A model generated the notes under the pieces. It saw nothing but the letters and a program-made list of their open reading frames with translations. It did not search any database and was not told the DNA's origin. From Pirellulales bacterium (lineage in GTDB: Bacteria; Planctomycetota; Planctomycetia; Pirellulales; JAICIG01): a DNA stretch of 23,425 nt. The stretch covers positions 1 to 23,425 of the forward strand of contig JAICIG010000063.1 in the NCBI GenBank assembly GCA_025924495.1, given 5' to 3'. A program made the translations under genes and the position numbers. Shown here piece after piece: positions 1,461 through 22,720 of this stretch. Within the stretch, counting starts at the first letter, position 1, and every line of letters begins with the position of its first letter.

Positions 1461-1476
1461 CGCAAAGCTCGTGCCG
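1461..1476 (-). promoter_or_regulatory. Candidate sigma-54 promoter, proximal copy, for the acyltransferase gene
   Basis: On the minus strand the sequence is CGGCACGAGCTTTGCG. It has GG-N10-GC spacing and agrees with TGGCACG-N4-TTGC except for the first base. The predicted transcription start near 1450 leaves a leader of about 55-65 nt. It is one of four exact GGCACG-N5-TGC matches found in the window. Confidence 0.62.
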
Positions 1477-1482
1477 AGCGTT

Positions 1483-1498
1483 TGCTTTCCGCGTGCCA
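1483..1498 (-). promoter_or_regulatory. Candidate sigma-54 promoter, distal copy, for the acyltransferase gene
   Basis: On the minus strand the sequence is TGGCACGCGGAAAGCA. The -24 element is perfect and the GG-N10-GC spacing is kept; the -12 element is AAGC instead of TTGC. It lies 22 bp upstream of the proximal copy, on the same face of the helix (about two turns), so the two could be alternative or redundant. Confidence 0.5.
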
Positions 1499-1705
1499 TT
1501 CCGGGCGGCCAGTTTTTTCTAGTGTTGATTGAACTGCGCTCGCCAAAATCGCACCGGCCATTTGATTATCTGCTGCGGCCGGGGCGCCTGCCCGTCCTAG
1601 GAGCGTCTCAGCTGCGAAGATAGAATGGGCGTTCGGCTTGGCGCCCACAGAATTTTAAAATCAATCGCCAAATGAGCGAAACCTCCAACCGCCGGCAGCC
1701 GCCGA

Positions 1706-1755
1706 CAATCGCGGTGCGATTGAAAAGGGGCTGGAACGATGCTTCAATCGCCCCT
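1706..1755 (+). promoter_or_regulatory. Leader with competing hairpins before the first ABC permease
   Basis: GCGATTG (1716-1722) can pair with CAATCGC just upstream (1706-1712, 3-nt loop). Extended to GCGATTGAA (1716-1724), it can pair with TTCAATCGC downstream (1743-1751, 9 bp). A further pair, AGGGGC (1726-1731) with GCCCCT (1750-1755), is compatible with the first fold and excludes the second. The structure ends 11 nt before the ATG at 1767, which has only a poor Shine-Dalgarno. Translational or transcriptional switching is an inference. Confidence 0.4.
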
Positions 1756-1766
1756 GATCGGACGTC

Positions 1767-2918
1767 ATGACGTTTTTTGAGCTGGTTTTTCGCAATCTCG
1801 TGCGGCGGAAATTGCGTTCGTCGCTTACGGCCATAGGCGTGGCCGTGGCCATCGCGACGGTTATTACCCTCGTCGGCATCTCGCAAGGTTTGACGCAGTC
1901 GGCCGTCGAGGCATTCCGCAGCCATGGCGTCGACCTGATCGTCGTGCGCGCCGGCGCCATGCAGCGGATGTCGAGCAGTCTGCATGAACAACTGAGCGGC
2001 CGGCTCGCGCGGTTGCCAGGCGTCGCCGAAGTCATCCCTGCCTTGACCGACATGGTCGCGCTGGAAGGAGCGGGGCCGATCGGCGTTCCGATCCACGGGT
2101 GGCCGCTCGAGTCCCGTCTTTGGAAGACTCTCCATATCGTCCGCGGGCGGACGCTGCGCTCCGGGGACGCCCATTCCGCAATTCTCGGCGACTCGTTGGC
2201 ACAAACGCTAGGCAAGGACGTGAGCGATGTCATCGAGATCGAGACGAGGCGGTTCCGCGTGGTCGGCATCTACGAAAGTTCGAACCTTTATGAAAGCGGC
2301 GCGGCGACCGTGCTGCTGCCCGACTTGCAGCAGCTCATGGACCGTAATGGCCAGGTGTCGGAATTCATGGTGTCGCTCAAGCAAGGGCTGCCAGATCCTG
2401 CCTCGACCGTCGCACTGTTAAAACGCGAGATAGACGTCATGACTGACGAGAGAGGCCTTTCGCTCGGCCTGACCGCCATGCCTACCGAGCAATACGTCAG
2501 CCATAACTTGGAATTGCGGCTGGCACGTGACATGGCATGGGCCGTGTCATCCATCGCGCTATTGATCGGTTCGGTAAGCGTGCTGAATACCATGCTGATG
2601 GCGGTCCTGGAGCGAACTCAGGAAATCGGCGTTTTGCGAGCGATCGGCTGGCGCAGGCGCCGAATCATCGGCATGATCGTTTGCGAGTCGTGCTTGCTTA
2701 GCCTGGTCGGAGCCTCGCTCGGAATCGCCGGCGGCATCTTGCTGACCGCCGGCCTAGGCCGATTTCCCGCGGCTCGCGGCCTGGTGCGCGGAGATACCTC
2801 GCCGACCATCATCGCGGTTGGGCTGCTGGTAGCGACCGTGGTCGGACTGTTGGGCGCAACCTACCCGGCGTATCGGGGCGCAGCACTGCAGCCGACCGAG
2901 GCGCTGCGCTATGAATAA
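1767..2918 (+). CDS. FtsX/MacB-type ABC transporter permease (first of a tandem pair)
   Basis: A 383-residue membrane subunit of the MacB/LolC/FtsX superfamily. An N-terminal transmembrane helix (about residues 20-42) follows the basic segment FRNLVRRKLRSS. A periplasmic MacB-like domain spans about 45-250. The C-terminal FtsX module has three helices (about 255-280, 305-330, 345-370), with the cytoplasmic loop QEIGVLRAIGWRRRRI, the usual coupling segment to the ATPase, near residues 287-302. It ends in the typical YPAYRGAALQPTEALRYE. No ATPase gene is adjacent, so its partner must be encoded elsewhere. The next gene is a clear paralogue. The substrate is unknown; export of lipids or lipoproteins across the envelope is typical of the family. 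Confidence 0.9.
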   Translation: MTFFELVFRNLVRRKLRSSLTAIGVAVAIATVITLVGISQGLTQSAVEAFRSHGVDLIVVRAGAMQRMSSSLHEQLSGRLARLPGVAEVIPALTDMVALEGAGPIGVPIHGWPLESRLWKTLHIVRGRTLRSGDAHSAILGDSLAQTLGKDVSDVIEIETRRFRVVGIYESSNLYESGAATVLLPDLQQLMDRNGQVSEFMVSLKQGLPDPASTVALLKREIDVMTDERGLSLGLTAMPTEQYVSHNLELRLARDMAWAVSSIALLIGSVSVLNTMLMAVLERTQEIGVLRAIGWRRRRIIGMIVCESCLLSLVGASLGIAGGILLTAGLGRFPAARGLVRGDTSPTIIAVGLLVATVVGLLGATYPAYRGAALQPTEALRYE

Positions 2919-3021
2919 CTTGCGATCGAGCGGATTGCGATCGGCGGCCAAGACTGCCTGTTGTGCCCGCCGTGGCGATCCCGACGACCCCGCACCGGTT
3001 GGGAATATGCCTGGTCCGCTT

Positions 3022-3025
3022 GGAG
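3022..3025 (+). promoter_or_regulatory. Ribosome binding site that fixes the start of the second permease
   Basis: GGAG stands 7 nt before ATG 3033. The reading frame remains open upstream to 2961, but the extra 24 residues are Arg/Trp/Pro-rich, unlike a permease N-terminus, while the segment from 3033 aligns with the N-terminus of the first permease. Confidence 0.65.
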
Positions 3026-3032
3026 CAATGCC

Positions 3033-4299: not shown

Positions 4300-4315
4300 C
4301 GGAATGGCAATTGCA
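4300..4315 (+). promoter_or_regulatory. Weak sigma-54-like promoter before the CHAD gene
   Basis: The sequence is CGGAATGGCAATTGCA, with GG-N10-GC spacing and a perfect TTGCA -12 element, but the -24 element has three mismatches. The predicted start near 4326 would give a leader of under 20 nt that still includes the GAGGAG ribosome site. Confidence 0.33.
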
Positions 4316-4327
4316 TTACTCCGTCGC

Positions 4328-4333
4328 GAGGAG
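4328..4333 (+). promoter_or_regulatory. Ribosome binding site that fixes the CHAD start
   Basis: GAGGAG lies 9 nt before ATG 4343. The in-frame ATG at 4304 has no such site, and its 13 extra residues are not CHAD-like, so 4343 is preferred. Confidence 0.7.
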
Positions 4334-4342
4334 AATTCCACG

Positions 4343-5359
4343 ATGGCAATCTCAATGTCCGACCGGTTCATTCGAGGCGCTACGGCGATAGACCGACCGA
4401 GCGATGTGGCGCGCGCCACATTGGCCATTCGCCTGGCTGCAGTCCAAATCGCCTTGCCCCTGGCCGCCGAGCGTGCGGACGAAGACGTGGAACACGTTCA
4501 CGACCTGCGAGTTTGGTCGCGGCGCGCCGTAGCGGCATTGGAACTGTACGCAGAATTCCTGCCGCCGCGCCGGATTGCGCGGTTGAAAAGGCAACTCAAG
4601 AATTTGCGCAAAGCGGCAAACCAGGCGCGTGATTGCGACGTGTTGATACAGATTCTTTCGTCGGAACCGCATTCGCCGCAAACCAGGGACTGGCTGAAGC
4701 AGGTCCGCCGAGAACGCGCCAAAGCTCAAACGCCGATTCGCCTGGCCTACGGGCGTTTCACGCGCAAGCGGCGCTTCGAGCGCCGAATCGGAGAATTGCT
4801 AAGACGGACACGGAGGCGTCTGCCGGAGGAAGAGCCGCAGTTTGGGGTCTGGGCGCGGGCGCGGCTGAAGCCGATTGTGGAGCGATTCTTCGCCGCCGTT
4901 CCGCCAGACGATGCCGAACTGGAGCAGTTGCACCGCTTCCGCATTCGCGGCAAAGACCTACGCTATGCCATGGAGTTGCTGGCCGACGCCTTCCCGCCTG
5001 CATTCAAGGAGCAGCTTTATCCGATGATCGAGGCGATTCAGGAAAAGCTTGGCCCTGTTAACGATTTAGCCGCGGCGCAGGCACGATTGAAACTTCGCCT
5101 GGATCGCCGGCTGAAACGAAAACGGCGGCTTGAATTGCGGCGACGCTACGTGCAGCAGGATCTGCAGCTCGCTGGGGCGCGATGGGCCTTCCACCAGTGG
5201 TTTTCTGCGAAAACACGAGTCGCTCTGCGCGCTCAGTTCCAACAGGCGCTCGCGGCCGAATCTTGCCCAGCTGTTCCTAGAGCAGCGCTCCCCATACCAT
5301 TTTCTCCGGCCCAGAATTGGCGGACTCCCCGCATTTCGGGCAACGGCCGAGGCTTCTAA
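4343..5359 (+). CDS. CHAD domain protein (polyphosphate-binding type)
   Basis: A 338-residue, very basic, mostly helical protein. CHAD hallmarks are seen in order: HVHDLRVWSRR (51-61, with conserved His and the basic helix), the RDCDV turn (96-100), a strongly basic middle (about 125-160), and HRFRIRGKDLRYAMELL (about 197-213) followed by EKLGPVNDL. CHAD domains are known to bind inorganic polyphosphate and to localise to polyphosphate granules, often fused to or beside a CYTH triphosphatase. Here there is no CYTH domain in the protein or next door. The gene stands alone, with a weak sigma-54-like promoter. The C-terminal 30 residues after about 310 are low in conservation. A structural or granule-associated role is inferred; catalysis is not expected. 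Confidence 0.88.
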   Translation: MAISMSDRFIRGATAIDRPSDVARATLAIRLAAVQIALPLAAERADEDVEHVHDLRVWSRRAVAALELYAEFLPPRRIARLKRQLKNLRKAANQARDCDVLIQILSSEPHSPQTRDWLKQVRRERAKAQTPIRLAYGRFTRKRRFERRIGELLRRTRRRLPEEEPQFGVWARARLKPIVERFFAAVPPDDAELEQLHRFRIRGKDLRYAMELLADAFPPAFKEQLYPMIEAIQEKLGPVNDLAAAQARLKLRLDRRLKRKRRLELRRRYVQQDLQLAGARWAFHQWFSAKTRVALRAQFQQALAAESCPAVPRAALPIPFSPAQNWRTPRISGNGRGF

Positions 5360-6023
5360 AATTGGTGCGGCGGCGCCGCTCCGCGCGGCGAAGGGCCAAA
5401 ACCGCTGTATCGCAATTACTCGCCGCCGCTGAAAGGCAGCTGCCTGCGGACATCTGCATAGATGCGCAATTTTTTTTTGGCGTCGCAGATTGCCGGTTCA
5501 ACTGGCGCAGATTGCATGATCTGCGAAAAGTCTCGCCTGATAACAGATGCTCGATGTCAATGGTATCGCCAAACGTCAACGCTGGCATATCATGCAAGCG
5601 AACGTCTCCGCGCGGGCAATGTGGCGTTTCGCGCTGCGACCGAATGGCGGTGTTAACGCTGCGTCGCGCCTTTGGGCTATCGCGGCTGAGCGGCACAGCT
5701 AGCGTGCTCAACGGCACGACCTGGAAAGGCGCGGACAATCTCCCCCAGTCAAGTACGCACTCGGGCCACCGCAAGTCGACAAAGTTTGTCCAGGCCTCAA
5801 ACTCGATGGGGTTCGGTATGTGAGTTGCTTTCATCGTGCGCGGCTCATGCGCGATCTGCTTTAGCAACCTGGCGAGCGAGGGAGGATCGGTCGCTACGCG
5901 GCGGGCACGGAAGCACGCACGAACAGGGCGGGCGACAAACGCGAAATTCGATGGTTTGCAGCAGGCGGCAGGAGGCTGTGCGTCGTTTCCTCTCTAAGGC
6001 TCCTTTGTGGAAAGGGTGTTGCT
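5360..6023. other. Gap of about 660 bp without a convincing gene
   Basis: Two overlapping frames on opposite strands (plus 5317-5823, minus 5277-5867) are open, but neither has recognisable domains, a good ribosome site or family-like composition. The minus frame ends with a single CPKCGE zinc-knuckle-like turn and overlaps the 3' end of the CHAD gene. It may be a decayed gene or chance. The last 160 bp should contain the promoter of the GCYG protein gene, but no clear element was seen. Confidence 0.45.
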
Positions 6024-6431
6024 ATGAATCGTGTACTTGCATTGGCTGTTGCTCTGTTCTTTGCCGTGGTCGCGATCTCGCTGATTTCGACCGACAACGT
6101 CGCTCAAGCCGGTCATGGCCGGCGCGGGTGCGCCTGCTCGGGGTGCTATGGTTGCGACTGCTCGGGCTGCTACGGCGGCGGGTGCTATGGTTGTCGCGGA
6201 CGGCGCGGTTGCCGCGGGTGCTATGGCTACTCGAACTGCTGTGGCTGCAATGGGGGATATAGCTGCAATGGATGCTACGGCGGCAATGGCTGCGATGGGA
6301 CGCAAGGCGCCCCAATGCAACCCGCGCCGGCTGCGCCGGAAGCGGCGCCGGCCGCTCCCCCCGCTCCGGCTCCCGCGCCGAGCGCCGCGGCTCCGCGTTC
6401 GAACGCGAGGCCGGTCGCCTTACGTAAGTAA
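6024..6431 (+). CDS. Secreted Gly/Cys/Tyr-rich GCYG-repeat protein with Ala/Pro tail
   Basis: 135 residues. A classical signal peptide covers residues 1-30 (MNRVLALAVALFFAVVAISL, cleavage likely after AQA). The mature N-terminal half is almost entirely Gly, Cys, Tyr, Arg and Asn, with recurring GCYG/SGCYG units and 16 cysteines within about 58 residues. The rest is an Ala/Pro linker (about 98-128) ending in a basic tail. GGAAAGG 8 nt upstream supports the start. Small GCYG-rich secreted proteins are known in planctomycetes, often attached to a TIGR03000 domain, which is absent here. A disulfide-crosslinked wall component or metal-binding role is conceivable but unproven. The gene ends in a strong terminator, so it is monocistronic. 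Confidence 0.78.
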   Translation: MNRVLALAVALFFAVVAISLISTDNVAQAGHGRRGCACSGCYGCDCSGCYGGGCYGCRGRRGCRGCYGYSNCCGCNGGYSCNGCYGGNGCDGTQGAPMQPAPAAPEAAPAAPPAPAPAPSAAAPRSNARPVALRK

Positions 6432-6468
6432 GACCGTCTAAGCATTCCAACCCCTGCGGTTTTTCCCC

Positions 6469-10998: not shown

Positions 10999-11006
10999 CT
11001 CACCTC
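10999..11006 (-). promoter_or_regulatory. Ribosome binding site that fixes the surface-protein start
   Basis: On the minus strand, GAGGTGAG lies a few bases before ATG 10995. It favours this start over the upstream in-frame ATG at 11034. Confidence 0.7.
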
Positions 11007-11352
11007 GGTTTGTCGAATTTTGATTCAATAACAACCGCCCCTAGCGCTCCCTGAAAGCACGGCGCGCGCAGGCCGATTAGGCGAACGCTCGCCACGATGC
11101 CAACAGGAAACGATTCAATAAGAAGGCCGGTCAGCGCACGCCAACTGGCGCCCGACGACATCAGCCTCAAGACGAGACTTCACAAGCTCTCGGCAGACTC
11201 AAGTACTCGGGCCGAGCTATGTTCGCCGAAACGTGCAAATGCGTCCGTCGCGAACGCATTGCTTCTCAAGAATGAGAAAAGAATCCCCTCAACCAACCCA
11301 GCCGTAACGGCCCAAAACTTTCTGCATTCTGCAGACGAGCGATTCCGATCCG

Positions 11353-11368
11353 AGCAAGCTTTTTGCCA
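11353..11368 (-). promoter_or_regulatory. Candidate sigma-54 promoter for the surface-protein gene
   Basis: On the minus strand the sequence is TGGCAAAAAGCTTGCT. It has GG-N10-GC spacing and a perfect TTGCT -12 element, with TGGCAAA instead of TGGCACG at -24. The leader would be long, about 345 nt, which lowers confidence. A perfect dyad sits about 95 bp further upstream. Confidence 0.43.
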
Positions 11369-11462
11369 AAAACAGACGTACGTTAACAACTCTTACCCCA
11401 TTCGTCAAATCTTCTCCTGCCCAGACTGCCCAACTGCGTCAATCTGACGTTGCCATGGCGCC

Positions 11463-11487
11463 GTTGACAACCCGCTTGTTTGTCAAC
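11463..11487. promoter_or_regulatory. Perfect dyad GTTGACAA-N9-TTGTCAAC
   Basis: Two 8-bp arms (11463-11470 and 11480-11487) are separated by 9 bp. There is no T-run on either side, so it is operator-like and not a terminator. It lies 75 bp beyond the end of hsp20-1 and 95-119 bp upstream of the candidate -24 element at 11368, a normal distance for an enhancer site. The geometry resembles CIRCE (9-bp arms, N9), but the sequence does not. Confidence 0.5.
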
Positions 11488-11562
11488 TTGTGAGCGCTGA
11501 CAGCGTTTGCGAGCCATGCTCTCCATGTTGACGACGCCAAACGGGCGGACTGACGCGCCCCA

Positions 11563-12054
11563 TTAAGATTTGATTTCAATCTGCTTCGGCTGAGCCTCCT
11601 CCGTCTTGGGCAGAATGATCTTGAGCAGTCCGTCTTGATAACGGGCCTCGATCCGGTCTTCGTCGACGGTTCCCGGCAGGGGAATGACGCGATGGAAATC
11701 CCCGTAGCAGTGCTCGACGCGGTGCCAGGTCTTGCCTCTCTGCTTCGTCTCCTCCTTTTTTTCGCCGGAGATCCATAGATCTCCGTGACGCAGCTCGACG
11801 CGCACGTCTTCGCGCTTCACGCCGGGCAGTTCCAGCGTAACTTCATACTCGTGCTCCGTTTCCGCCAGACTAGCTGAGGGAACGAAACAGGCGGCGCCCA
11901 CGTACCGTTCTGCAGCGCTGCCGAAGAAACGTTCCATGAGCTGCTCGAAATCGCGTTCCAGACGGGCCAGAGGTTTCGGCAGCCGATCAAGCCAGGGATC
12001 TCGGCGATACCAGGGGCGAGTTCGCGTTTCTTTTTCTTCCGTTGCCGTGGCCAT
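11563..12054 (-). CDS. Small heat shock protein, Hsp20/alpha-crystallin family (copy 1)
   Basis: 163 residues. The N-terminal arm is about 55 residues (PWLDRLPKPLARLERDFEQLMERFFG). The alpha-crystallin domain covers about 57-150, with YEVTLELPGVKREDVRVELRHGDLWISGEKK and the hallmark RVIPLPGTVDEDRIEARYQDGLLKI-LPK region. It ends in the C-terminal I-x-I anchor (IEI, in QIEIKS). Such proteins form oligomers that hold unfolding proteins in the cytoplasm. AAAGGAGAA (12061-12069) is well placed before ATG 12054. A sigma-54-like promoter lies at 12155-12170, with no CIRCE or obvious sigma-32 site. It is paralogous to the copy at 18257-18709 and divergent from the CBS gene. Confidence 0.95.
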   Translation of the reverse strand: MATATEEKETRTRPWYRRDPWLDRLPKPLARLERDFEQLMERFFGSAAERYVGAACFVPSASLAETEHEYEVTLELPGVKREDVRVELRHGDLWISGEKKEETKQRGKTWHRVEHCYGDFHRVIPLPGTVDEDRIEARYQDGLLKIILPKTEEAQPKQIEIKS

Positions 12055-12154: not shown

Positions 12155-12170
12155 CGCAAACGGCGTGCCG
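12155..12170 (-). promoter_or_regulatory. Candidate sigma-54 promoter for hsp20-1
   Basis: On the minus strand the sequence is CGGCACGCCGTTTGCG: -24 GGCACG, -12 TTGC, GG-N10-GC spacing. It is an exact GGCACG-N5-TGC match. The predicted start near 12143 gives a leader of about 90 nt. Confidence 0.72.
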
Positions 12171-12552: not shown

Positions 12553-12568
12553 TGGCACGCAACGTGCA
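12553..12568 (+). promoter_or_regulatory. Candidate sigma-54 promoter for the CBS gene
   Basis: The sequence is TGGCACGCAACGTGCA, with a perfect -24 element, a GTGC -12 element and GG-N10-GC spacing. It differs by only two bases (G/A and A/C) from the promoter of the Usp gene at 22705-22720. The predicted start is near 12579. The -12 element lies inside a 13-bp tandem duplication. Confidence 0.78.
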
Positions 12569-12586: not shown

Positions 12587-12589
12587 GTT

Positions 12590-12625
12590 GATGTCTTTCG
12601 CAGAGCTGATGTCTTTCGCAGAGCT
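12590..12625 (+). repeat. 18-bp perfect tandem duplication in the CBS leader
   Basis: GATGTCTTTCGCAGAGCT occurs twice head to tail (12590-12607, 12608-12625), followed by a partial third start, AATGTC. It lies between the predicted transcription start and the chosen ATG at 12669. It would read as MSFAEL-MSFAEL in the CBS frame if translation began further upstream. Confidence 0.85.
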
Positions 12626-12656
12626 AATGTCAACCATCATTCACGCGTTCGTCGTC

Positions 12657-12660
12657 GGAG
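12657..12660 (+). promoter_or_regulatory. Ribosome binding site that fixes the CBS start
   Basis: GGAG lies 8 nt before ATG 12669. Upstream in-frame starts at 12588-12630 lack a ribosome site and begin inside the tandem repeat, so 12669 is preferred. Confidence 0.65.
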
Positions 12661-12668
12661 AAGCAATC

Positions 12669-13109
12669 ATGAATCTTGGCGAAATGTTCCACAGCAATGT
12701 CGTGACGGTCGGGCTGGACGACACGCTCACGATGGCCATCAGCCTGATGCAGCAGCACAACGTGGGCGCGGTCGTCGTCATTGATCGGAAAGAGGTCGAT
12801 CGGAAAGAGGTCGCGGGTATCCTCACCGACCGCGATGTCGCCCTGGCAGTCGTGCTCGGCACAGCGACGCCCGATAGCACCGTCAGCGAAACCATGTCGC
12901 GCAAAGTAGTAACGATCTGGGATGACCAAGGCATCTTCGACGCTACGCAAGCCATGCAAGGTCATCAGGTTCGCCGGCTGCCGATTGTCAATCGCCAGAA
13001 TGAACTGGTGGGCATCGTCGCTTTGGACGATCTTGTCGGCCTGCTCACGAAAGAGCTTTCCAATCTGGGCGAGGCCATCGCCCCGGCGTTGGCCGAAAAA
13101 GCGTACTAG
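12669..13109 (+). CDS. Twin CBS-domain protein
   Basis: 146 residues that consist of one CBS pair (Bateman module) and nothing else: CBS1 about residues 7-66 with GILTDRD (50-56), and CBS2 about 76-131 with RRLPIVNRQNELVGIVALDDL. Such stand-alone pairs bind adenine nucleotides or similar ligands and act as energy-status sensors or regulators of partner proteins. The turn before GILTDRD carries a perfect five-residue duplication, DRKEV-DRKEV (39-48), from a 15-bp tandem duplication; it lengthens a beta hairpin near the ligand cleft. The final Asp of each domain, commonly ribose-binding, is present (TDRD, ALDD). The gene is divergent from hsp20-1 and convergent with the ABC operon, with a 36-bp gap. 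Confidence 0.92.
   Translation: MNLGEMFHSNVVTVGLDDTLTMAISLMQQHNVGAVVVIDRKEVDRKEVAGILTDRDVALAVVLGTATPDSTVSETMSRKVVTIWDDQGIFDATQAMQGHQVRRLPIVNRQNELVGIVALDDLVGLLTKELSNLGEAIAPALAEKAY
12783..12812 (+). repeat. 15-bp perfect in-frame tandem duplication inside CBS1
   Basis: GATCGGAAAGAGGTC occurs twice (12783-12797, 12798-12812), adding five codons (DRKEV) to the CBS protein without breaking the frame. It is the third perfect tandem duplication within 250 bp. Confidence 0.88.
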
Positions 13110-13145
13110 CGTGCGAAATAAGCGTCGCGGCGCCGGACGGCATCC

Positions 13146-14354: not shown

Positions 14355-14360
14355 AACCGG

Positions 14361-16724
14361 TCACTCCCTGGTTTTCAACACGGCGACGAGGTCGAGATGA
14401 TCGAGCCGCCGCCGCACCGCGAGCCCCGAAACGATGGCTGCGGAGATCACAACGCTCGCCGCCATGGCGTAGGTCGCGGGCAAGATTACCAGCGGAATGC
14501 GGAACATTTCCGTGTCGTATCCCCAGGTCATAAACCAAGCCAGGCCGTAACCCAACGCCAAACCCGGCGGAACGGCCGCCAGTGTCAGGATGGCCAATTC
14601 GCCTAACAGAATGAACGAGATCTCGGCGCGCGTAAAGCCCAGCACGCGCAGGCTGGCCAGTTCGCGGCTGCGTTCGGCCACCGAGATGCGCGCGCTATTA
14701 TAGACTACGCCAAAGGCGATAATGGCGGCAAACGCCACATTGACGGCCTTCATCCGCAGCAGACTATCGGCCAGCGTCTCCTGGAGGCTCCGTCGGGCCG
14801 CGTCTTTTACGGTGGCGGCGGCGATTTGCGGCGTGACCTTGACCGCCGCATACAGCCTGGGCAAAACCTGAGAGTCGACGCGGAGAAACGCCCCTGAAAT
14901 GCAGCCGTCCTCGCGCATCAGGCGGTGCAACGCCTGCAAATCCATGTAGGCGCCAGTCCCGACAAAGTCAGAAATGACGGCGGTCACCAGCATGGCGCGC
15001 ACGGGGCGCTCGGCCTCGAGGACTTCAACGGTCAGCGGTTCTCCCTCGGCTACCCGCAACACTTCGGCCAGCTTCGCGCTCAGCACGATGCCGCCAGGCG
15101 GCAACCGCAGCGGCGAGCGAGTTTCGTCGAGCACGCGCAGCATTTGTGAATGCTCCGCCAGCCCGAGTATTTCGCTGCGCCGGCGCCGATGTCCGTTGCG
15201 CAAGCGGACGGGAACGGCGCGGAACGCCTCGCTGCCTAAAACTCCCGGCAAATGCTCGATATCATGCAACACGCCCTGCGAGGTCGGTTCGACGAGCGCC
15301 AGCGTCACGTCCTGCCGATGCATGACATCGAACTCCATGTGGATCAGATCATCCAAAGCGTCGCCGATAAAATTCCCCAACACGAGAATCGCCACAGCCA
15401 TCGCAATTCCAGCGACCGAGAGAGCAGCAGGGATCCAGCGCCGCTCGAGATTGCGAACGATGATTCGCATCGAATGGGAGAATAGCCATCCCATTCCCCA
15501 GCGCTCGAGCAGCGTCGGCCGGTATTGAGCCGGCGGTTCAGGGCGCATCGCCTCGGCAGGAGGCAGTCGCACCGCGCGGCGCACGGCGCCTAATGTTCCT
15601 AGCATGGCGGCCGCGCTACTTGTCGCCAACGCCCAGATTACGACCGAAGCGCTAAGGTGGTACTCGAGCAGCGGGAAGTGAAAAAATCGGGTGTACATAT
15701 TCGTCAAACCGCTTCCTAGCCAGGCCCCCAAGCCGGCGCCGAGCAAGGAACCGGCCGCAACGACCGTCAACACCATCTTCAGGTAGTGCAGTGCGATCTC
15801 GCGGCGCGTATAGCCGAAAGCCTTAAGTGCGGCAATCTGCTCGCGTTGGGCGCTAGTGATTCGCGACAACACCACATTCAATAAGAACGCCGCGACCAGC
15901 AGGAAGATTACCGGCGCGAACAAGCCCATATTGCGCAGCTCGCGAATTTCGTTGCTCAAGTAACGGTGCGAAACCTGGTCTTCCCGTCCGTAGGCGCTCA
16001 GACCGCCGTACGCATCGATCAGACGGTCGATCCGCGCCAGCACTTCCGGCTCGGAGGCTTCGGGCGAGAGGTAGCACGACAAGTCATTGAACGAGCTTCG
16101 CATGTCGAACGCCGCTGCCAGCTCGGTCTCTGCCATCCAGAACACGCCGAATGTTCGGTCGTTGGGAAATACCTCGCTGCCTCGAATCTGGTAAACATAT
16201 TCGGGCGAAAGCACGACGCCCACGATCGACAGCACCTCTCGGCGGCCATTGATCACCGCGGATACGCGATCGCCCGGCTCGAGTCCGTTCGCCGACGCAA
16301 AAGCCTCGGCAACCAAGGCTTCGCCCGCGCGGCCCGGTTCGATGTACCGCCCGCTGCGCAAATACAACGCATTCATCGCCGGCAGGCGGCCTTCAGGAAT
16401 CGAGATCAAGCGGCCCACGGCTGGCTGGTCCAGACCCGGCACGTCGAGCACGACGTCGGCGACGACGCGAGTTTGCACCTGGGCGACTCCGGGAATCGCC
16501 TCGAGCCGCGGACGCAAAGCAACAGGCGCCCGTTTCAGATGAGCGAATACGTGCGCGAACCGATAACGCTCATAGTACGTCGCTTGCGTCATCTCCAGCG
16601 ATTCGAGCGTGCTCAGCGACATCACAAACGTGCCGATGCCGCAGGCGATCACGGCGCCGATGGCTGTGAACTGGCCTCGCAGTTGCCAGACGTCGCGCAT
16701 GAGCTTGCGGTCGAGTGCGGTCAT
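14361..16724 (-). CDS. Two-module ABC exporter permease (FtsX/MacB superfamily)
   Basis: 787 residues. It has an N-terminal helix (about 18-38), a first periplasmic domain, an FtsX module (about 270-390, coupling loop REQIAALKAFGYTRREI), then a second copy of the same layout: helix around 435-455, periplasmic domain, FtsX module (about 660-780, loop RSRELASLRVLGFTRAEI). This is the fused form in which one chain supplies both halves of the channel, as in DevC/YbbP-like exporters. The frame can begin with TTG 16730, but ATG 16724 is preferred, with GGTGAG upstream in the end of the ATPase gene. The gap to the ATPase is 7 bp and to the adaptor gene 6 bp, so they are translated together. Confidence 0.92.
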   Translation of the reverse strand: MTALDRKLMRDVWQLRGQFTAIGAVIACGIGTFVMSLSTLESLEMTQATYYERYRFAHVFAHLKRAPVALRPRLEAIPGVAQVQTRVVADVVLDVPGLDQPAVGRLISIPEGRLPAMNALYLRSGRYIEPGRAGEALVAEAFASANGLEPGDRVSAVINGRREVLSIVGVVLSPEYVYQIRGSEVFPNDRTFGVFWMAETELAAAFDMRSSFNDLSCYLSPEASEPEVLARIDRLIDAYGGLSAYGREDQVSHRYLSNEIRELRNMGLFAPVIFLLVAAFLLNVVLSRITSAQREQIAALKAFGYTRREIALHYLKMVLTVVAAGSLLGAGLGAWLGSGLTNMYTRFFHFPLLEYHLSASVVIWALATSSAAAMLGTLGAVRRAVRLPPAEAMRPEPPAQYRPTLLERWGMGWLFSHSMRIIVRNLERRWIPAALSVAGIAMAVAILVLGNFIGDALDDLIHMEFDVMHRQDVTLALVEPTSQGVLHDIEHLPGVLGSEAFRAVPVRLRNGHRRRRSEILGLAEHSQMLRVLDETRSPLRLPPGGIVLSAKLAEVLRVAEGEPLTVEVLEAERPVRAMLVTAVISDFVGTGAYMDLQALHRLMREDGCISGAFLRVDSQVLPRLYAAVKVTPQIAAATVKDAARRSLQETLADSLLRMKAVNVAFAAIIAFGVVYNSARISVAERSRELASLRVLGFTRAEISFILLGELAILTLAAVPPGLALGYGLAWFMTWGYDTEMFRIPLVILPATYAMAASVVISAAIVSGLAVRRRLDHLDLVAVLKTRE

Positions 16725-16731
16725 CGGCAAC

Positions 16732-17487
16732 TCACCATTCCAACTGGGATGCCGGCTTTCGCTGCGCGTTGCTCCTGACGCCGGAAATTCGGCCGTCGAA
16801 GAGCGAAATCACGCGGTCGGCCATGCCCGCGATGGATGCGTTGTGCGTGATGACCGCGGTCGTTGCGCCCAGTTCGCGATTCACGCGATCGATCGCCTCC
16901 AGAACTTTGATGCCCGTCTTGACGTCGAGTGCACCGGTCGGTTCGTCGCAGAGCAACACTTCAGGTCGCTTGGCGATGGCGCGCGCGATTGCCACGCGCT
17001 GCTGTTCGCCGCCCGAGAGCTGAGCGGGAAAATGGTCCATTCGATCGGTCAGGCCTACCAGTTCCAAGGCCTCTTCCGCCTTCATTGGTTTGCGAGCGAT
17101 GTCGGTGACCAGCGCCACGTTCTCGCGCGCGGTCAAGCTCGGAATCAGGTTATAGAACTGGAACACGAAACCGACGTGGTCTCGGCGGTAGCGAGTCAGT
17201 TGGCGATCATCTTCAATCGTCAGATCATGATCGCGAAAATTGACGTGCCCGCTGGTCGGCACGTCAAGCCCGCCGAGGATGTTGAGCAGCGTCGACTTGC
17301 CGCTGCCCGAAGGCCCCAGCAGCACGACGAATTCTCCCGCATACAGTTCCAGATCGACCCCGCGCAAGGCCTGCACTTCGACCTCGCCCATCTGGTAAGT
17401 TTTCGTCAGTCCGCGGGCGACAAAGACCGCCGGCCGGTGAACCTCCGGCGGAACATCGTGCTCAGTCTTTTCACCGGACGAATACAT
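16732..17487 (-). CDS. ABC exporter ATPase (MacB/LolD/DevA type)
   Basis: 251 residues. Walker A is GPSGSGKST (58-66), the Q-loop is in FVFQ (107-110), the signature is LSGGEQQR (157-164), Walker B is [11 protein letters not shown] (178-188) with catalytic Glu, and the H-loop is in VITHN. TGALD and the short Q-loop segment [18 protein letters not shown] are typical of the MacB/LolD group, which drives substrate extrusion from the periplasmic face and not classical import. It is the first gene of an ATPase-permease-adaptor operon. The N-terminal 18 residues are extra and poorly conserved. The ribosome site is weak. It might also serve the orphan permeases at 1767-4160, which is speculative. 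Confidence 0.96.
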
Positions 17488-17795
17488 CAGAACAGTGATC
17501 GGAGGCGCCGTTTGATCTGCAAACCTTGCGTCGTTGGCCAGCTTGTCAGGTGCGTTCCATTTTGGCTTGCGTGCTTAAGGCAACAGCGAGCGAATTGGCT
17601 GCTATCGAATGCGAACGCCCTCGAGCCTCGGCCAGTAACCATTCTACTGGCTGAGCGCCAGCTTGGCTCGCCCTATCTCATCACGACAGTCAAGAACGGC
17701 CTTTGGTTTAACGCCGGAGCGCTGGAAGAAATCAGCCCAAAGACTTACCGCCTTGGCGACGTCAGGCGAGTAGCCGCCTGCCGAGTTGCTTCTGG
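17488..17795. other. Intergenic region upstream of the ABC operon
   Basis: About 310 bp. A systematic look for GG-N10-GC on the minus strand found no sigma-54-like promoter here, unlike the stress genes on either side. The visible feature is the dyad at 17631-17651. A long plus-strand frame crossing this region is antisense to the ATPase gene and is not called. Confidence 0.5.
17631..17651. promoter_or_regulatory. Perfect dyad GCCAGTA-N7-TACTGGC
   Basis: Seven-base arms (17631-17637, 17645-17651) are separated by 7 bp, about 145 bp upstream of the ATPase start. Spacing and symmetry suit a dimeric repressor or activator. It could also be a 3' hairpin of the BON transcript, though there is no T-run. 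Confidence 0.4.
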
Positions 17796-18116
17796 CTATC
17801 GGACGGCGATAAGCGACGGCTGCAATCCGGGCGTTACGATCAACCGGTCAATCACGTTCAGCACGCCCGCGACATGTCGGCAGCCTTCGCAGATACGCCA
17901 TTTGATGGATGCCGAGGCGACCATCCCGCGCAAAAGGACATTGCCGTTCATGATCGTGAAGCGTATGCATTCCAAGCCGTCAATGTTCCGCAGAGCCAGG
18001 TAACTGAGCACGCGACGTTGCAGATGTTTATCCGAGGGACGTTGCCCGGGTTCGGCGGAATCATCACAGGTGCGGTTCTGAAAGGGCGAGTTTTGAGCGG
18101 GTCCGAAGGCTACCAT
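17796..18116 (-). CDS. Small BON-domain protein
   Basis: 106 residues. From about residue 35 the sequence follows the BON pattern: LQRRVLSYLALRNIDGLECI, then the strand-turn NGNVLLRGMV (family consensus NGxVxLxGxV), then a helix and CRHVAGVLNVIDRLIV (consensus ar-V-GV-xV-d-L-V). BON domains bind phospholipid membranes and are typical of OsmY-like stress proteins. Here there is only one BON and no signal peptide, so it is probably cytoplasmic or misses an N-terminal part. The start at ATG 18116 is the best in-frame choice, but its ribosome site is weak; the frame is open to 18227. No sigma-54-like promoter was found. Confidence 0.68.
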   Translation of the reverse strand: MVAFGPAQNSPFQNRTCDDSAEPGQRPSDKHLQRRVLSYLALRNIDGLECIRFTIMNGNVLLRGMVASASIKWRICEGCRHVAGVLNVIDRLIVTPGLQPSLIAVR

Positions 18117-18190
18117 GAGTCGGAATTCTCGGTGCGATGGCGGGAAGAATAACAGGCGGGAATTATCTTGAGCCGGGCAGCTACGCACCG

Positions 18191-18225
18191 GCCGGGACGC
18201 CCGCAAACTGCCGCGGCGTCCCGGC
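18191..18225 (-). terminator. Large perfect hairpin after hsp20-2 (no T-run)
   Basis: GCCGGGACGCC and GGCGTCCCGGC, an 11-bp perfect stem with a 13-nt loop, begin 31 bp after the hsp20-2 stop. No U-tract follows, so it may act as an RNA 3' stabiliser or a pause/terminator of the hairpin-only kind. It also lies in the leader region of the BON gene. Confidence 0.5.
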
Positions 18226-18256
18226 ACGTGAACGTAGCGGATCCGTTAAGGTCAAC

Positions 18257-18709
18257 TCAGACGCCAACCTTGATCTGTTTCGGCTTGGTCTTTTCGCTTT
18301 TGGGCAGCACGATCTTGAGCACGCCGTCAGTGCAGCGCGCTTCGATCTTGGCTTCTTCCACGACGCCGGGCAGCGGAATCGATCGATAAAAGCTTCCAAA
18401 GCTCGACTCGAGTCGATGGAAGGTCTTGCCTTTTTCTTCCTTCTCTTCCTTCCGTTCGCCGGAAACGATCAGATTCTGTTTTTGCAATTCAACCTTCACG
18501 TCTTCCGCTTTCATGCCGGGCAGGTCGACGTTCACCTCGTACTGAGCGTCCGTTTCCGCAACGTTGACCTGCGGAAGGTAGGCGTCCAATCCTTGCCATT
18601 CGCCATCGCCCGCTCCGAAGAACCGTTGCATCAAGTTTTCCATTTCTCGGGCAAAACCTTCGAACGGGCGGGGCAGTCTTTCTGCTTGTGGAACCAACGA
18701 GCGAATCAT
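18257..18709 (-). CDS. Small heat shock protein, Hsp20/alpha-crystallin family (copy 2)
   Basis: 150 residues. A short N-terminal arm (LPRPFEGFAREMENLMQRFF) precedes the alpha-crystallin domain, about 45-140, with YEVNVDLPGMKAEDVKVELQ, the signature RSIPLPGVVEEAKIEARCTDGVLKI-LPK and a C-terminal IKV anchor in QIKVGV. The role is ATP-independent holding of unfolding proteins. It shares its architecture and much of its alpha-crystallin domain with copy 1, but the N-terminal arm is shorter and different. A perfect AGGAGG (18718-18723) lies 8 nt before ATG 18709, and a sigma-54-like promoter at 18816-18831. Confidence 0.95.
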   Translation of the reverse strand: MIRSLVPQAERLPRPFEGFAREMENLMQRFFGAGDGEWQGLDAYLPQVNVAETDAQYEVNVDLPGMKAEDVKVELQKQNLIVSGERKEEKEEKGKTFHRLESSFGSFYRSIPLPGVVEEAKIEARCTDGVLKIVLPKSEKTKPKQIKVGV

Positions 18710-18717
18710 GTCTTGTG

Positions 18718-18723
18718 CCTCCT
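18718..18723 (-). promoter_or_regulatory. Consensus ribosome binding site of hsp20-2
   Basis: A full AGGAGG with 8-nt spacing to ATG 18709, the strongest in the window. It suggests high expression. Confidence 0.85.
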
Positions 18724-18815
18724 AGAATTGAGTAACGTCCTAAAGCATAGGAACTGAATGTATCTGCCGTCCCAAACTGGAGTGGCTGGTTTACTGGCAA
18801 CTTTTTGCTGGCAGA

Positions 18816-18831
18816 TGCAAAACGCATGCCC
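18816..18831 (-). promoter_or_regulatory. Candidate sigma-54 promoter for hsp20-2
   Basis: On the minus strand the sequence is GGGCATGCGTTTTGCA, with GG-N10-GC spacing and a perfect TTGCA -12 element; the -24 element is GGCATG. The predicted start near 18804 gives a leader of about 95 nt, similar to hsp20-1. Confidence 0.68.
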
Positions 18832-18861
18832 GCGCTCGGCCGGCGAATAACCGCTGGAATT

Positions 18862-18897
18862 GCCGATCGCTAGCACCGCGAGGGCGTGCGGATCGGC
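18862..18897. promoter_or_regulatory. Nested dyad between hsp20-2 and the alcohol dehydrogenase gene
   Basis: GCCGATC (18862-18868) pairs with GATCGGC (18891-18897); inside it GCAC (18873-18876) pairs with GTGC (18886-18889). It lies 31-66 bp upstream of the hsp20-2 -24 element, in a divergent control region. An operator is possible; an RNA hairpin is also possible. Confidence 0.38.
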
Positions 18898-19044
18898 GCG
18901 CAGGTGTGCTTGATAGCTCTTTTGTGCATCTCATGTCGACGCATCGCATTGAACGCCGTGGATTCAAGAACCCTCCCGTCGCGCGGCAAAGCTTTTGACA
19001 ACATTGATCTATCCGGCATTGCTGGCGAGGCTAGGATCAAGATT

Positions 19045-20031
19045 ATGAAAGCCATGTTACTTGATTCGGCCCGGCGGCCCTTGAGAGCCGCGGATCTTCC
19101 CCAGCCAAAGCCCGGCGCCGGACAATTGCTGCTGCGCGTCAAGGCATGCGGGGTCTGCCGCACCGATTTGCACGTGGTCGACGGAGAGTTGCCCCAGCCC
19201 AAGCTGCCGTTAGTCCCCGGCCACGAAGTCGTGGGGGTCGTGGAAGCCGCGGGCGAAGGCGCGACCGACGTAGCGCTTGGCGCGCGCATGGGAGTGCCGT
19301 GGCTCGGCTGGACATGCGGCGAGTGCTTTTTTTGCCGGCGCGGCGAGGAAAACCTGTGCGACCGCGCCCGCTTCACAGGCTATCAACTGGATGGCGGCTA
19401 TGCCGAGTATATCGTCGCCGATCGCCGGTTCTGTTTTCCCATTCCCGACGGCTACTCCGATGCGAACGCGGCTCCGCTCTTGTGCGCGGGCTTGATCGGC
19501 TATCGCTCGCTACGAATGACGGGCGAAGCGAAGCGTCTGGGCTTCTATGGGTTCGGGGCGGCAGCGCACATCTTGATTCAGGTCGCGACGTTTCAGCAAC
19601 GCGAAGTCTTTGCGTTTGTGCGACCGGGCGACCTCGAGGCACAGGAGTTCGCCAGATCGCTTGGAGCCGTGTGGGCCGGCGACTCGGACGTCTGTCCGCC
19701 GCAGTCGCTTGACGCGGCCATCCTGTTCGCACCCGTCGGCGCTTTGGTTCCCGCGGCGCTGCGCGCTGTGCGCAAAGGGGGCGTGGTGGTCTGCGCCGGC
19801 ATTCACATGAGCGACATCCCCTCGTTTCCCTATGACATCCTGTGGGGTGAGCGCGTAATTCGATCGGTGGCGAACCTGTCGCGGCAAGACGGCGCCGAGT
19901 TCATGGAGTTATTGCGTGAGGTTCCCATCCGCACTGAAGTGCAAATCTATCCGCTCGAGAAGGCCAATCAGGCCCTCGGCGATCTGCGAAACGGCGAAGT
20001 TCGCGGCGCGGCCGTGCTGCTCGTCGATTAG
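19045..20031 (+). CDS. Zinc-dependent alcohol dehydrogenase (MDR family, TIGR02822-like)
   Basis: 328 residues, predicted to oxidise alcohols or reduce aldehydes with NAD(P). Catalytic zinc ligands are expected at C38 (ACGVCRTDLH), H60 (GHE) and C147 (PLLCAG). The structural zinc site is complete: C91, C94, C97 and C105 in CGECFFCRRGEENLC. The cofactor loop is GFYGFGAAAH (166-175), where the third Gly of GxGxxG is replaced, as in the adh_fam_2 subgroup. The segments APVGALVPAALRAV and AGIHMSDIPSFPYDILWGER also fit that subgroup. The start is at ATG 19045, with AGGA upstream; the frame is open to 18886. Only a defective sigma-54-like sequence (CGGCAAAGCTTTTGAC, GA instead of GC) lies before it, at 18984-18999. 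Confidence 0.92.
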   Translation: MKAMLLDSARRPLRAADLPQPKPGAGQLLLRVKACGVCRTDLHVVDGELPQPKLPLVPGHEVVGVVEAAGEGATDVALGARMGVPWLGWTCGECFFCRRGEENLCDRARFTGYQLDGGYAEYIVADRRFCFPIPDGYSDANAAPLLCAGLIGYRSLRMTGEAKRLGFYGFGAAAHILIQVATFQQREVFAFVRPGDLEAQEFARSLGAVWAGDSDVCPPQSLDAAILFAPVGALVPAALRAVRKGGVVVCAGIHMSDIPSFPYDILWGERVIRSVANLSRQDGAEFMELLREVPIRTEVQIYPLEKANQALGDLRNGEVRGAAVLLVD

Positions 20032-20060
20032 GACAACGCGGTTCGATTGCCGGTGAGAGA

Positions 20061-21164
20061 TCAGTAATTCCTGACCCACGCCATGATGATCTCGAACGCG
20101 ATCAGCAGGATGACCGTCAACTCCAAGAGCTCGGTGCGGTGCCGGGAGGCCTGGTCCGACAACACCTGGTAGACGCTCTCCGCAACTTGCAGCGACCGGT
20201 GAATGCTGTTCGTCCATTCCTCAAGATGAAACTTGGCTGCCAGCAGCCGGTACGTGCGCGCCAGATACTGATCGCCCATCAACTTCAGTACATTACTTGT
20301 CCGTTCCACGACCGCGTTGGCCTCGATCTTCAAGTCGCCCAGGTCGCGCATGGGTCGCACGTGAGTTCGCCAGGGAAAGAGCCAGGCACGGGGCGATCGA
20401 TGCACCAAGGAGTAAGCGGCCGCCAGTTGATCGTCGAGCCGAGTATCCGTGTGCCGAAACTCCAATAGTTGCAGATTGGCAAATTCAATCGTTTGCAGCG
20501 TTTCCTCGCAATCGCGATCGACAAGCACAGCCGCGGACCATTCGAGAATCAGCAGATCCTTCGGGCTGTAGCTGAGGCGGAGCCGCAGCGATTCCGTAAC
20601 CTCTTCCTGGCTGAGCGGCTCCGCCTCGAGACGCAACAGGCCCGCCAGCCAATCGGCCGAATCGCGCATTAGTTGGGCGGGCGGCGGCAACGAGCCGTCG
20701 GTCGGAAGGACGAAGACGAAGTACTCCTCGCTCAGCGCGCTCCAGGCAGGTCCTTGGATGGCGGGGAGCAGATGCTGATAGAGCGACTCGCTGGCGCGGC
20801 GCGCGGCCAGCACGATAGGCTCCGCGTCGCTCAGCGAATTCGCGAGTCCGGTCAAGCCAGCCGGGTTGAGGCAGAAGGGAACATGCAACGCCACATTGAC
20901 CGCGGCGAAATCGAATACCGTGGCTTCCGCTTCGACTTCGATGGCGCCCAACGGCGCCAGCGAAAGCGACGCCTTGGGCAGAGTAAAGCGGAGCGGAGCC
21001 GGACGATACGCAATGGATGAAGGGGTGCGCGGGCGGCGCGCCAGCGGACGAAACTGCGACGGCGCCAATTGCCGGGCGTGCTCCAAGTTAACCTCGTCCC
21101 CCCAGTCAAACGCCACGGCGACGCGCAAGATTCCAGTCAGCCCAACAGCGGGATCCATCGTCAT
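20061..21164 (-). CDS. RMD1/DUF155-like membrane-anchored protein
   Basis: 367 residues from ATG 21164 (GGAAAG four bases upstream; a second ATG lies at 21158). The N-terminal two thirds show no familiar catalytic motif. The C-terminal part looks like bacterial RMD1/DUF155 proteins: NLQLLEFRHTDTRLDDQL, then LGDLKIEANAVVERTSNVLK, GDQYLARTYRLLAAKFHLEEW, a long helical stretch and a final transmembrane helix with short tail (LLELTVILLIAFEIIMAWVRNY, last 22 residues). The conserved ending E-LLE-(I/V)ILLI-xE is the family's tail anchor. Eukaryotic members (RMND1, Rmd1) work in mitochondria; bacterial function is unknown. It is convergent with the alcohol dehydrogenase gene, 29 bp apart, and divergent from galT. 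Confidence 0.65.
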   Translation of the reverse strand: MTMDPAVGLTGILRVAVAFDWGDEVNLEHARQLAPSQFRPLARRPRTPSSIAYRPAPLRFTLPKASLSLAPLGAIEVEAEATVFDFAAVNVALHVPFCLNPAGLTGLANSLSDAEPIVLAARRASESLYQHLLPAIQGPAWSALSEEYFVFVLPTDGSLPPPAQLMRDSADWLAGLLRLEAEPLSQEEVTESLRLRLSYSPKDLLILEWSAAVLVDRDCEETLQTIEFANLQLLEFRHTDTRLDDQLAAAYSLVHRSPRAWLFPWRTHVRPMRDLGDLKIEANAVVERTSNVLKLMGDQYLARTYRLLAAKFHLEEWTNSIHRSLQVAESVYQVLSDQASRHRTELLELTVILLIAFEIIMAWVRNY

Positions 21165-21253
21165 CGGTCTTTCCAGCCAATTCGTTTGCGGATTTGAGCT
21201 CGCGCCCTGATTTCGCCTGAGTCCGCCGCGATTCAAGATACAATATCGTCGCT

Positions 21254-21272
21254 CGATTGCTCGCACCAATCG
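21254..21272. promoter_or_regulatory. Dyad CGATTG-N7-CAATCG upstream of the galT promoter
   Basis: Six-base perfect arms (21254-21259, 21267-21272) are separated by 7 bp, 115-133 bp upstream of the -24 element of galT. The position suits an enhancer-binding protein site; it is equally close to the start of the RMD1-like gene. Confidence 0.38.
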
Positions 21273-21386
21273 TCTCCGCGGCATCATCCGCTGATTTCAA
21301 CTGCGCGTCTGGACGCCTGCGCGGATCTGCGCGAAAATCGGCGTTCCGGCGCCGCCGTATCAGGCTGAGAGATTGGGGGTGCGGCG

Positions 21387-21402
21387 TGGCGCGTAAATTG
21401 CT
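21387..21402 (+). promoter_or_regulatory. Candidate sigma-54 promoter for galT
   Basis: The sequence is TGGCGCGTAAATTGCT, one mismatch from TGGCACG-N4-TTGCT, with GG-N10-GC spacing. The predicted start near 21413 gives a leader of about 36 nt and supports ATG 21449 as the true start, since the open frame upstream would lie outside the transcript. Confidence 0.73.
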
Positions 21403-21448
21403 CCACGTACGCCGGAAGGGTTCAATTCACTCTCTCAACTTCATCACG

Positions 21449-22498
21449 ATGTCGCAATTACGATTTGACGTTTCCACCGGGGACTGGGTAGTTTTTGCAC
21501 CTTCGCGCGCCTTGCGCCCGCAGCATGCCCCTGCGGAAACGCGTCCGCACGACGCGCATCCCGCGCAGTGTCCTTTTTGCCCCGGCAATGAGGCCTTTAC
21601 TCCGCCGGAAATTTACACCGTGCGTTCCTCACGCGGCGATAACGGCTGGCTGGTCCGCGTGATACCAAATAAGTTCCCTGCGTTGCAGATCGAGGCCGAT
21701 ACGCGTCGCATCGAAGAGGGACCGTCGTTTCATTCCATGGGCGGCTGCGGCGCCCACGAAGTAATCGTCGAGTCGCCCGAGCATACAGTATTTCTCGCGC
21801 AACAGTCGGTCGAGCAAATTGAGCTGGTGCTGCGCACCGTGCAACTGCGACAGCAAGACTTGATGCGCGACCGGCGATTTCAGGCGTTGATCGCTTTCAA
21901 GAATCACGGTATGGCCGCGGGAACATCGCTCGAACATCCGCACTGGCAGATGATTGCAACGCCGGTCGTTCCCCGTCTCCTTCGGCAGAAACATGCGGTG
22001 GCGGCGGAATACTTCGACCGCACCGGCGATTGCCTGTATTGCGTAACGCTCGCCGATGAAATGGCGTCCGGCAAACGCATTCTGGCCGCGAATCCCGCAT
22101 ATACCGCGCTTTTGCCCTATGCCTCGCACGTGCCGTTTGAAACCTGGATCGTGCCGCGGCGCGCCCGGGCCGCCTTCACTTCGGTTCCCACCGAAGAATT
22201 GCGGCCGCTCGCAGAACTCCTGCGATTGGTCCTGCTCAAACTGTATACGGCGCTTGACAACCCCAGTTTCAATCTGACGATCGACACCGTGTCTCGCGGC
22301 GATGAAGAAAAGGAATACTTTCTATGGCATCTAAGAATCCTGCCGCGGCTGACGACTCCGGCCGGATTCGAAATGGGCAGCGGCATGTCGATCAACACCG
22401 TACTGCCCGAGGATGCTCGGGATTTTCTCAGCGAAGTCGCAACGACAAGCAATCATGCCGTGCAACTTTCCAGTTCGGCGGCAGGCCAACCTTCCTAG
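21449..22498 (+). CDS. GalT-family hexose-1-phosphate nucleotidyltransferase
   Basis: 349 residues of the galactose-1-phosphate uridylyltransferase branch of the HIT superfamily. A zinc-knuckle-like CPFCPGNE (41-48), GAHEVIVESPEH (101-112) and the active-site HPHWQ (163-167) are seen; H165 would be the nucleotidylated His. A second Cys pair lies in GDCLYC. Classical GalT has HPHGQ; the Trp variant, and the isolated setting without galK or galE, leave open an ADP-glucose or other sugar-nucleotide phosphorylase-type activity. ATG 21449 has no clear Shine-Dalgarno, but the GalT-like sequence (LRFDVSTGDWVVFAPSR) begins right after it and a sigma-54-like promoter sits 47 bp upstream. The last 25 residues are unconserved. 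Confidence 0.85.
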   Translation: MSQLRFDVSTGDWVVFAPSRALRPQHAPAETRPHDAHPAQCPFCPGNEAFTPPEIYTVRSSRGDNGWLVRVIPNKFPALQIEADTRRIEEGPSFHSMGGCGAHEVIVESPEHTVFLAQQSVEQIELVLRTVQLRQQDLMRDRRFQALIAFKNHGMAAGTSLEHPHWQMIATPVVPRLLRQKHAVAAEYFDRTGDCLYCVTLADEMASGKRILAANPAYTALLPYASHVPFETWIVPRRARAAFTSVPTEELRPLAELLRLVLLKLYTALDNPSFNLTIDTVSRGDEEKEYFLWHLRILPRLTTPAGFEMGSGMSINTVLPEDARDFLSEVATTSNHAVQLSSSAAGQPS

Positions 22499-22588
22499 GC
22501 GAGCGGTTGCAGTTCTTGCTTGCTGGTAAATGGCCTGAATCAGCGAATTGGTTGGGGCAACGAGCGAACCGCAAGCCCGCGACTGTGC

Positions 22589-22625
22589 AAAGTGTGCGGT
22601 GACATGCGCCACACAGCACACTTTT
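22589..22625 (+). terminator. Inverted repeat after galT: terminator or Usp enhancer site
   Basis: AAAGTGTGC (22589-22597) pairs perfectly with GCACACTTT (22616-22624), with four T at 22622-22625. It lies 90 bp after the galT stop, which suits a modest intrinsic terminator. It also lies 81-116 bp upstream of the -24 element of the Usp gene, where an activator could bind as DNA. Both uses are possible. Confidence 0.5.
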
Positions 22626-22704
22626 AAGCTGTTTAGCCGCTCAGCCCAATGCTTCGCGCGCAACTCTGCTCGGCAAACACGACGTGCTTGCTACTCCTGC
22701 GCTT

Positions 22705-22720
22705 TGGCACGCAACATGCC
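22705..22720 (+). promoter_or_regulatory. Candidate sigma-54 promoter for the Usp gene
   Basis: The sequence is TGGCACGCAACATGCC, with a perfect -24 element, an ATGC -12 element and GG-N10-GC spacing. The first 11 bases are identical to the CBS promoter. The predicted start near 22731 gives a leader of about 66 nt. Confidence 0.78.

Follow-up and report, generated by a model that had tools for sequence, protein, structure and literature searches.

Several described systems come close to the locus reported here. In Planctomycetia, Carrera-Reyna et al. (2025, PMC12316311) predicted an enrichment of sigma-54 control among the Hsp20/IbpA, GroES, GroEL, GrpE, DnaJ, DnaK and Usp families; the main text of that paper contains neither 'upstream activat' nor 'uas', and its available text describes no enhancer motif. 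In Rhodopirellula baltica, Hsp20, GroEL, DnaK, DnaJ and GrpE are induced by heat and rpoN is present, the latter being not heat-regulated and down in high salinity (PMC2754498). For the lxa locus of Burkholderia cenocepacia, a CRP/FNR-type regulator was suggested (PMC6127331). Here, we analysed 23,425 bp of a Pirellulales bacterium (assembly GCA_025924495.1, contig JAICIG010000063.1), a stretch referred to below as the window. Judging from its sequence, the window likely holds a cluster of stress genes, at least six transcription units of which (those of the acyltransferase, hsp20-1, CBS-domain, hsp20-2, galT-like and usp genes, Table 1) have sigma-54 promoters of their own, with no recognisable common enhancer. 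As in the regulon predicted for Planctomycetia, putative sites precede Hsp20 and Usp genes; unlike there, they are packed densely into a single locus, of which the available text of PMC12316311 describes none. Similarly, no sigma-54 site before Hsp20 is mentioned in the available text on the heat-shock response of R. baltica (PMC2754498), whereas such sites were found here before both hsp20 genes. Since the enrichment at the level of families had already been predicted (PMC12316311), a preliminary description of the window was too strong in calling such control little described in planctomycetes. What appears to be new, as far as that text goes, is the dense clustering of sites and, in related genomes, a candidate enhancer for heat shock.

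Sites were scored with two weight matrices, one based on the literature, the other built from 34 sites in relatives. The two are not independent, because the literature matrix chose the training sites of the relatives' matrix. Using the former at a threshold of at least 11 bits, eight sites were detected in hand-annotated intergenic DNA (including those at 11353 and 6008, see below), compared with 0.9 in shuffled sequences, none of 200 of which reached this count. The latter, at 9 bits or more, gave nine matches, all of them intergenic. The four exact copies of GGCACG-N5-TGC noticed in the preliminary description were found at the same positions, and the chance expectation was indeed below one (0.61 in shuffles, with four copies in 1 of 100). 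The longer pattern TGGCACG-N4-TTGC, allowing one mismatch, occurred five times against 0.93 expected, and no shuffle out of 100 had as many. Spacing was informative as well. All five near-consensus sites with a 4-bp gap were intergenic, while gaps of 0-3 and 5-9 bp yielded no intergenic site and three coding ones (gaps of 5 and 7 bp). The same bias was observed in relatives, where 37 of 64 sites with a gap of 4 bp were intergenic and each of the remaining gaps gave 3-9 intergenic sites.

As for density, window matches of at least 11 bits comprised seven gene-linked sites, two other intergenic ones and none within coding DNA. For comparison, 1.26 Mb of DNA from relatives contained 1.28 gene-linked sites per 23.4 kb, and none of 55 relative pieces of at least 16 kb had more than four; these pieces measured 16-20 kb and were thus shorter than the window, some having been chosen for hsp20, galT or the zinc alcohol dehydrogenase (ADH) gene. 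A higher density of sigma-54 sites in the window than in relatives' DNA is supported.

The sites before the six genes are correctly oriented and, as first described, lie close to likely gene starts: 67 and 89 bp for the two acyltransferase sites, 101 bp for hsp20-1, 107 bp for hsp20-2, 47 bp for galT and 77 bp for usp. The CBS site is 104 bp from the start used and about 101 bp from the ATG at 12669. Starts preferred by a codon model change these distances to 124 and 146 bp (acyltransferase), 173 bp (hsp20-2), 23 bp (CBS) and 62 bp (usp). Two tandem direct repeats seen by eye at 12561-12625, with units of 13 and 18 bp in two copies each, stretch from the -12 element of the predicted CBS promoter into the CBS leader.

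Parallels in related genomes are clearest for hsp20. A site of at least 12 bits was present within 350 bp upstream in 14 of 33 hsp20 genes, compared with 14 of 562 control open reading frames (ORFs) of at least 300 aa, and on the opposite strand in only 1 of 33; the hsp20 regions ended at the model match and the control regions 50 bp inside the ORF. The corresponding Fisher value of 3e-12 overstates the certainty because several hsp20 loci are near-duplicates. Across the group, hsp20 genes are thus widely predicted to be controlled by sigma-54. The gene for sigma-54, rpoN, was found in 18 of 19 other genomes, namely in all three reached via galT loci and in 15 of the 16 others, and all 16 relatives possessed sigma-54 activators (6-19 matches per genome, E-values up to 1e-40). 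The sigma-54 activators of Pirellula sp. strain 1, a related planctomycete, were reportedly studied in silico by Studholme and Dixon in 2004, who also proposed promoters according to a citing text (PMC2754498). Taken together, spacing, orientation, gene linkage and the hsp20 parallels support the view that the window sites would behave as sigma-54 promoters. At each of them, RNA polymerase carrying sigma-54 would bind the -24/-12 site and, as the known mechanism implies, would start only after contact with an AAA+ activator; stress would presumably induce the genes of the cluster.

Several observations are weaker or weigh against this interpretation. The second of the tandem acyltransferase sites has a poor -12 element and is not in the relatives'-matrix set of nine (at least 9 bits). 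The same set lacks the CHAD site, which requires a gene start at about 4343. Of the weaker sites formerly proposed, that of the surface-protein gene (11353-11368) is 358 bp from the gene. Another match (6008-6023) touches the ATG of a Cys-rich ORF and probably arose by chance; neither it nor the site at 11353 is probably a promoter of the next gene. Moreover, GGCACG-N5-TGC with one mismatch was not enriched in the window (15 seen, 13.8 expected). TGGCACG-N4-TTGC with one mismatch was counted 3194 times in 98.1 Mb of 16 genomes, an average of 0.76 per 23.4 kb against five in the window, and this genome-wide total exceeded the reversed control (2269) only modestly. The density contrast is also inflated, because a high density was the reason for selecting the window. 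If the sites were chance products of GC-rich intergenic DNA, then the unenriched loose pattern, the badly placed matches at 6008 and 11353 and the near-matches across the genomes of relatives, for the most part about as frequent as in the reversed control, would all be expected. Nevertheless, we disfavour this explanation and regard it as very improbable in the light of the spacing and intergenic controls, the intergenic shuffles, the density relative to other genomes and the conservation at hsp20. A further set of objections comes from the relatives themselves. No rpoN was seen in one of the 16 (G632, completeness unstated). Sites of at least 11 bits preceded galT in 4 of 27 cases and usp in 4 of 30 (30 loci returned, not all usp matches, some of them second domains), as compared with 19 of 562 controls, and ADH in none of 27. 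The case outside hsp20 therefore rests mainly on the window, and conservation support there is thin.

The preliminary description went further and proposed that a single activator of NtrC type acts upstream of each gene and turns on the cluster as one dispersed regulon. The common sigma factor and the crowding of sites are compatible with this, and the enhancer motif of relatives (see below) indicates that many sigma-54 chaperone promoters can be tied together. However, the seven window promoters had no k-mer or dyad in common above shuffles (6-60 of 60 shuffles equalled the observed sharing, depending on the measure), with the reservation that seven promoters offer less power than the sixteen hsp20 promoters of relatives. 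The dyad of relatives, CTGYCA-N3-TGRCAG, had no exact copy in the window, and its one-mismatch matches were at chance level. Furthermore, no sigma-54 activator was detected among the 17 window proteins scanned against Pfam profiles, and the 16 relatives encode 6-19 activators each. In addition, usp has an inverted repeat of its own, 81-116 bp ahead of its sigma-54 site (Table 1), possibly bound by a separate activator. A single activator for all genes is hence unlikely. One candidate for a shared enhancer, GACGCGCAG, occurred in six of the seven regions and in at most five in eight crude shuffles, but was rejected after 19 of 60 dinucleotide shuffles reached six. In summary, the case for common control by sigma-54 appears well supported, that for a single common activator does not. 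With a shared sigma factor but no recognisable enhancer, control by several activators, or by one whose site escaped detection, is more probable than a single proven switch.

The situation is different upstream of hsp20 in relatives. Allowing one mismatch, a 10-mer recurred before 12 of 16 hsp20 sites (14 of them within 350 bp of the gene, two beyond), compared with 4-5 in four crude shuffles, and this 10-mer corresponds to the dyad mentioned above. Its core, TGYCA-N3-TGRCA, was found exactly in 11 of the 16 promoters, 104-186 bp upstream of the site, once with one mismatch and in four cases not at all; 12 of the 17 exact core dyads present in 1.51 Mb precede those hsp20 sites. The full dyad occurred 95 times in 26 genomes, as opposed to 30 times for the reversed control, and was missing from three genomes. 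From these 95 places, 40 stretches were sampled with a preference for A+T-rich cores, and 51 distinct dyads were scored overall. For 25 of 47 distinct intergenic dyads, a site of at least 11 bits was found at a distance of 60-220 bp in the proper direction, but for only 6% of 1620 random intergenic positions. Pfam assignment of 20 of the 22 genes downstream of the dyad (two were left out) gave seven HSP70, six Cpn10, one Cpn60, two HSP20, two response-regulator receivers and two without a match. Dyad and sigma-54 sites thus precede dnaK, groES and groEL in relatives besides hsp20, which makes CTGYCA-N3-TGRCAG a candidate heat-shock enhancer of a putative sigma-54 regulon. Examples about 100-190 bp upstream of sites are L243:385, L260:9779, L379:1580, L383:1580, L409:1543 and L413:1566. 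In one genome (G446, L239:1094-1181), the order is inverted, the dyad lying downstream of a 20-bit sigma-54 site that is itself about 500 bp ahead of hsp20. The two response-regulator genes (L402:882-1283 and L405:1881-2282) encode single-domain proteins of 133 aa behind dyad and site, a possible link of the heat-shock regulon to phospho-signalling. Activators were grouped in a partial sample of 40 regions from six genomes and ten earlier loci, one region having no recognisable activator; G478 had six activator matches. No single heat-shock activator emerged, because three groups have members in G478, G280, G396, G451 and G447 alike. The enhancer is described in no title or abstract opening that we found, in a search that mostly left out subscription journals and did not use the dyad sequence itself.

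From these results, a broader model can be put forward tentatively, and we hold it to be somewhat less likely than its negation. In this planctomycete order, sigma-54 may take the part played elsewhere by sigma-32 or sigma-B, with a core of DnaK, GroES/EL and Hsp20 under one activator acting through CTGYCA-N3-TGRCAG, and a separately activated tier of Hsp20, Usp, CBS and metabolic genes, of which the window would be a packed example. If true, both heat shock and general stress of the group would rely on an ATP-driven activator and not on a dedicated heat-shock sigma factor. The enhancer of relatives sharpens the published statistical prediction to a hypothesis of one activator, one DNA site and few target genes. 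The window offers a concrete, if predicted, map of promoters for a stress cluster from a group in which little is understood of heat-shock control.

Other modes of regulation were considered as well. The presence of usp, heat-shock and BON genes is shared with the lxa locus (PMC6127331, available text), and the window could accordingly be viewed as a low-oxygen island under a CRP/FNR-type regulator, its sigma-54 sites being minor. Yet the sites in the window are sigma-54-like, and matches to FNR-like sites were no more frequent than by chance (five seen and 5.6 expected with up to two mismatches, none exact), so that we find this view hardly credible. CIRCE sites in the window and sigma-70-like sites, sought in 11000-23425 only, were not above chance, and an Rfam scan of the window gave nothing above threshold.

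Table 1. Genes and predicted regulatory sequences of the window
Feature	Position	Strand	Details
Acyltransferase gene	405..1394	-	PF01553, 4.3e-07
CHAD-domain protein, ORF as scanned	4304..5359	+	PF05235, 5.5e-32
hsp20-1	11563..12054	-	PF00011, 4e-23
CBS-domain protein	12669..13109	+	PF00571, 1.9e-23; scan began at 12672
hsp20-2	18257..18709	-	PF00011, 4.6e-24
galT-like uridylyltransferase	21449..22498	+	PF01087, 5.1e-16
Universal stress protein (usp), continues past window end	22797..23425	+	PF00582, 9.2e-44
Predicted sigma-54 site, acyltransferase	1461..1476	-	CGGCACGAGCTTTGCG; 13.2 bits literature, 14.0 relatives' matrix; in 4-bp gap set
Weaker tandem sigma-54-like site, acyltransferase	1483..1498	-	TGGCACGCGGAAAGCA; 10.1 bits literature matrix
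Possible sigma-54 site, CHAD	4300..4315	+	CGGAATGGCAATTGCA; 11.35 bits literature matrix
Predicted sigma-54 site, hsp20-1	12155..12170	-	CGGCACGCCGTTTGCG; 11.5 bits literature, 15.3 relatives' matrix
Predicted sigma-54 site, CBS-domain gene	12553..12568	+	TGGCACGCAACGTGCA; 14.35 bits literature, 11.9 relatives' matrix
Predicted sigma-54 site, hsp20-2	18816..18831	-	GGGCATGCGTTTTGCA; 13.5 bits literature, 12.1 relatives' matrix
Predicted sigma-54 site, galT	21387..21402	+	TGGCGCGTAAATTGCT; 15.1 bits literature, 17.0 relatives' matrix, top score in both
Predicted sigma-54 site, usp	22705..22720	+	TGGCACGCAACATGCC; 12.7 bits literature, 10.1 relatives' matrix
13-nt inverted repeat upstream of usp site	22589..22624	.	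AAAGTGTGCGGTG / CACAGCACACTTT, 92% complementary

Besides the genes listed in Table 1, the window encodes two MacB/FtsX permeases, a large surface protein (DUF4214, Ig-like domains), an HlyD/FtsX/ATPase export set, a BON protein and the zinc ADH. The permease, export and ADH genes and the gene at 20061-21164 had no convincing sigma-54 site of their own. Two of the 17 scanned proteins remained without a Pfam match. The 367-aa product of 20061-21164 and the small ORF at 6024-6431, which is rich in Cys-Gly-Tyr repeats, have none. A plasmid search with hsp20-1 returned only matches below 60% identity. As an anchor for finding related clusters, galT proved unsuitable, since its homologues in relatives (those named being mostly from Pirellulales) reside mostly in other contexts and the cluster of the window was not recovered. 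Closer galT homologues, with 80-82% identity, occur on short contigs. ADH led to 12 relatives with 63-71% identity, none with a site of at least 11 bits before the gene, and no window-like cluster was observed in the stretches examined around it. The contig G451:C16 (L136, L204) carries galT, an Hsp20 gene (33% identity) and an ABC ATPase (77%)/permease/HlyD set close together; despite this similar gene set, a single gene-linked site of at least 11 bits was present in G451.

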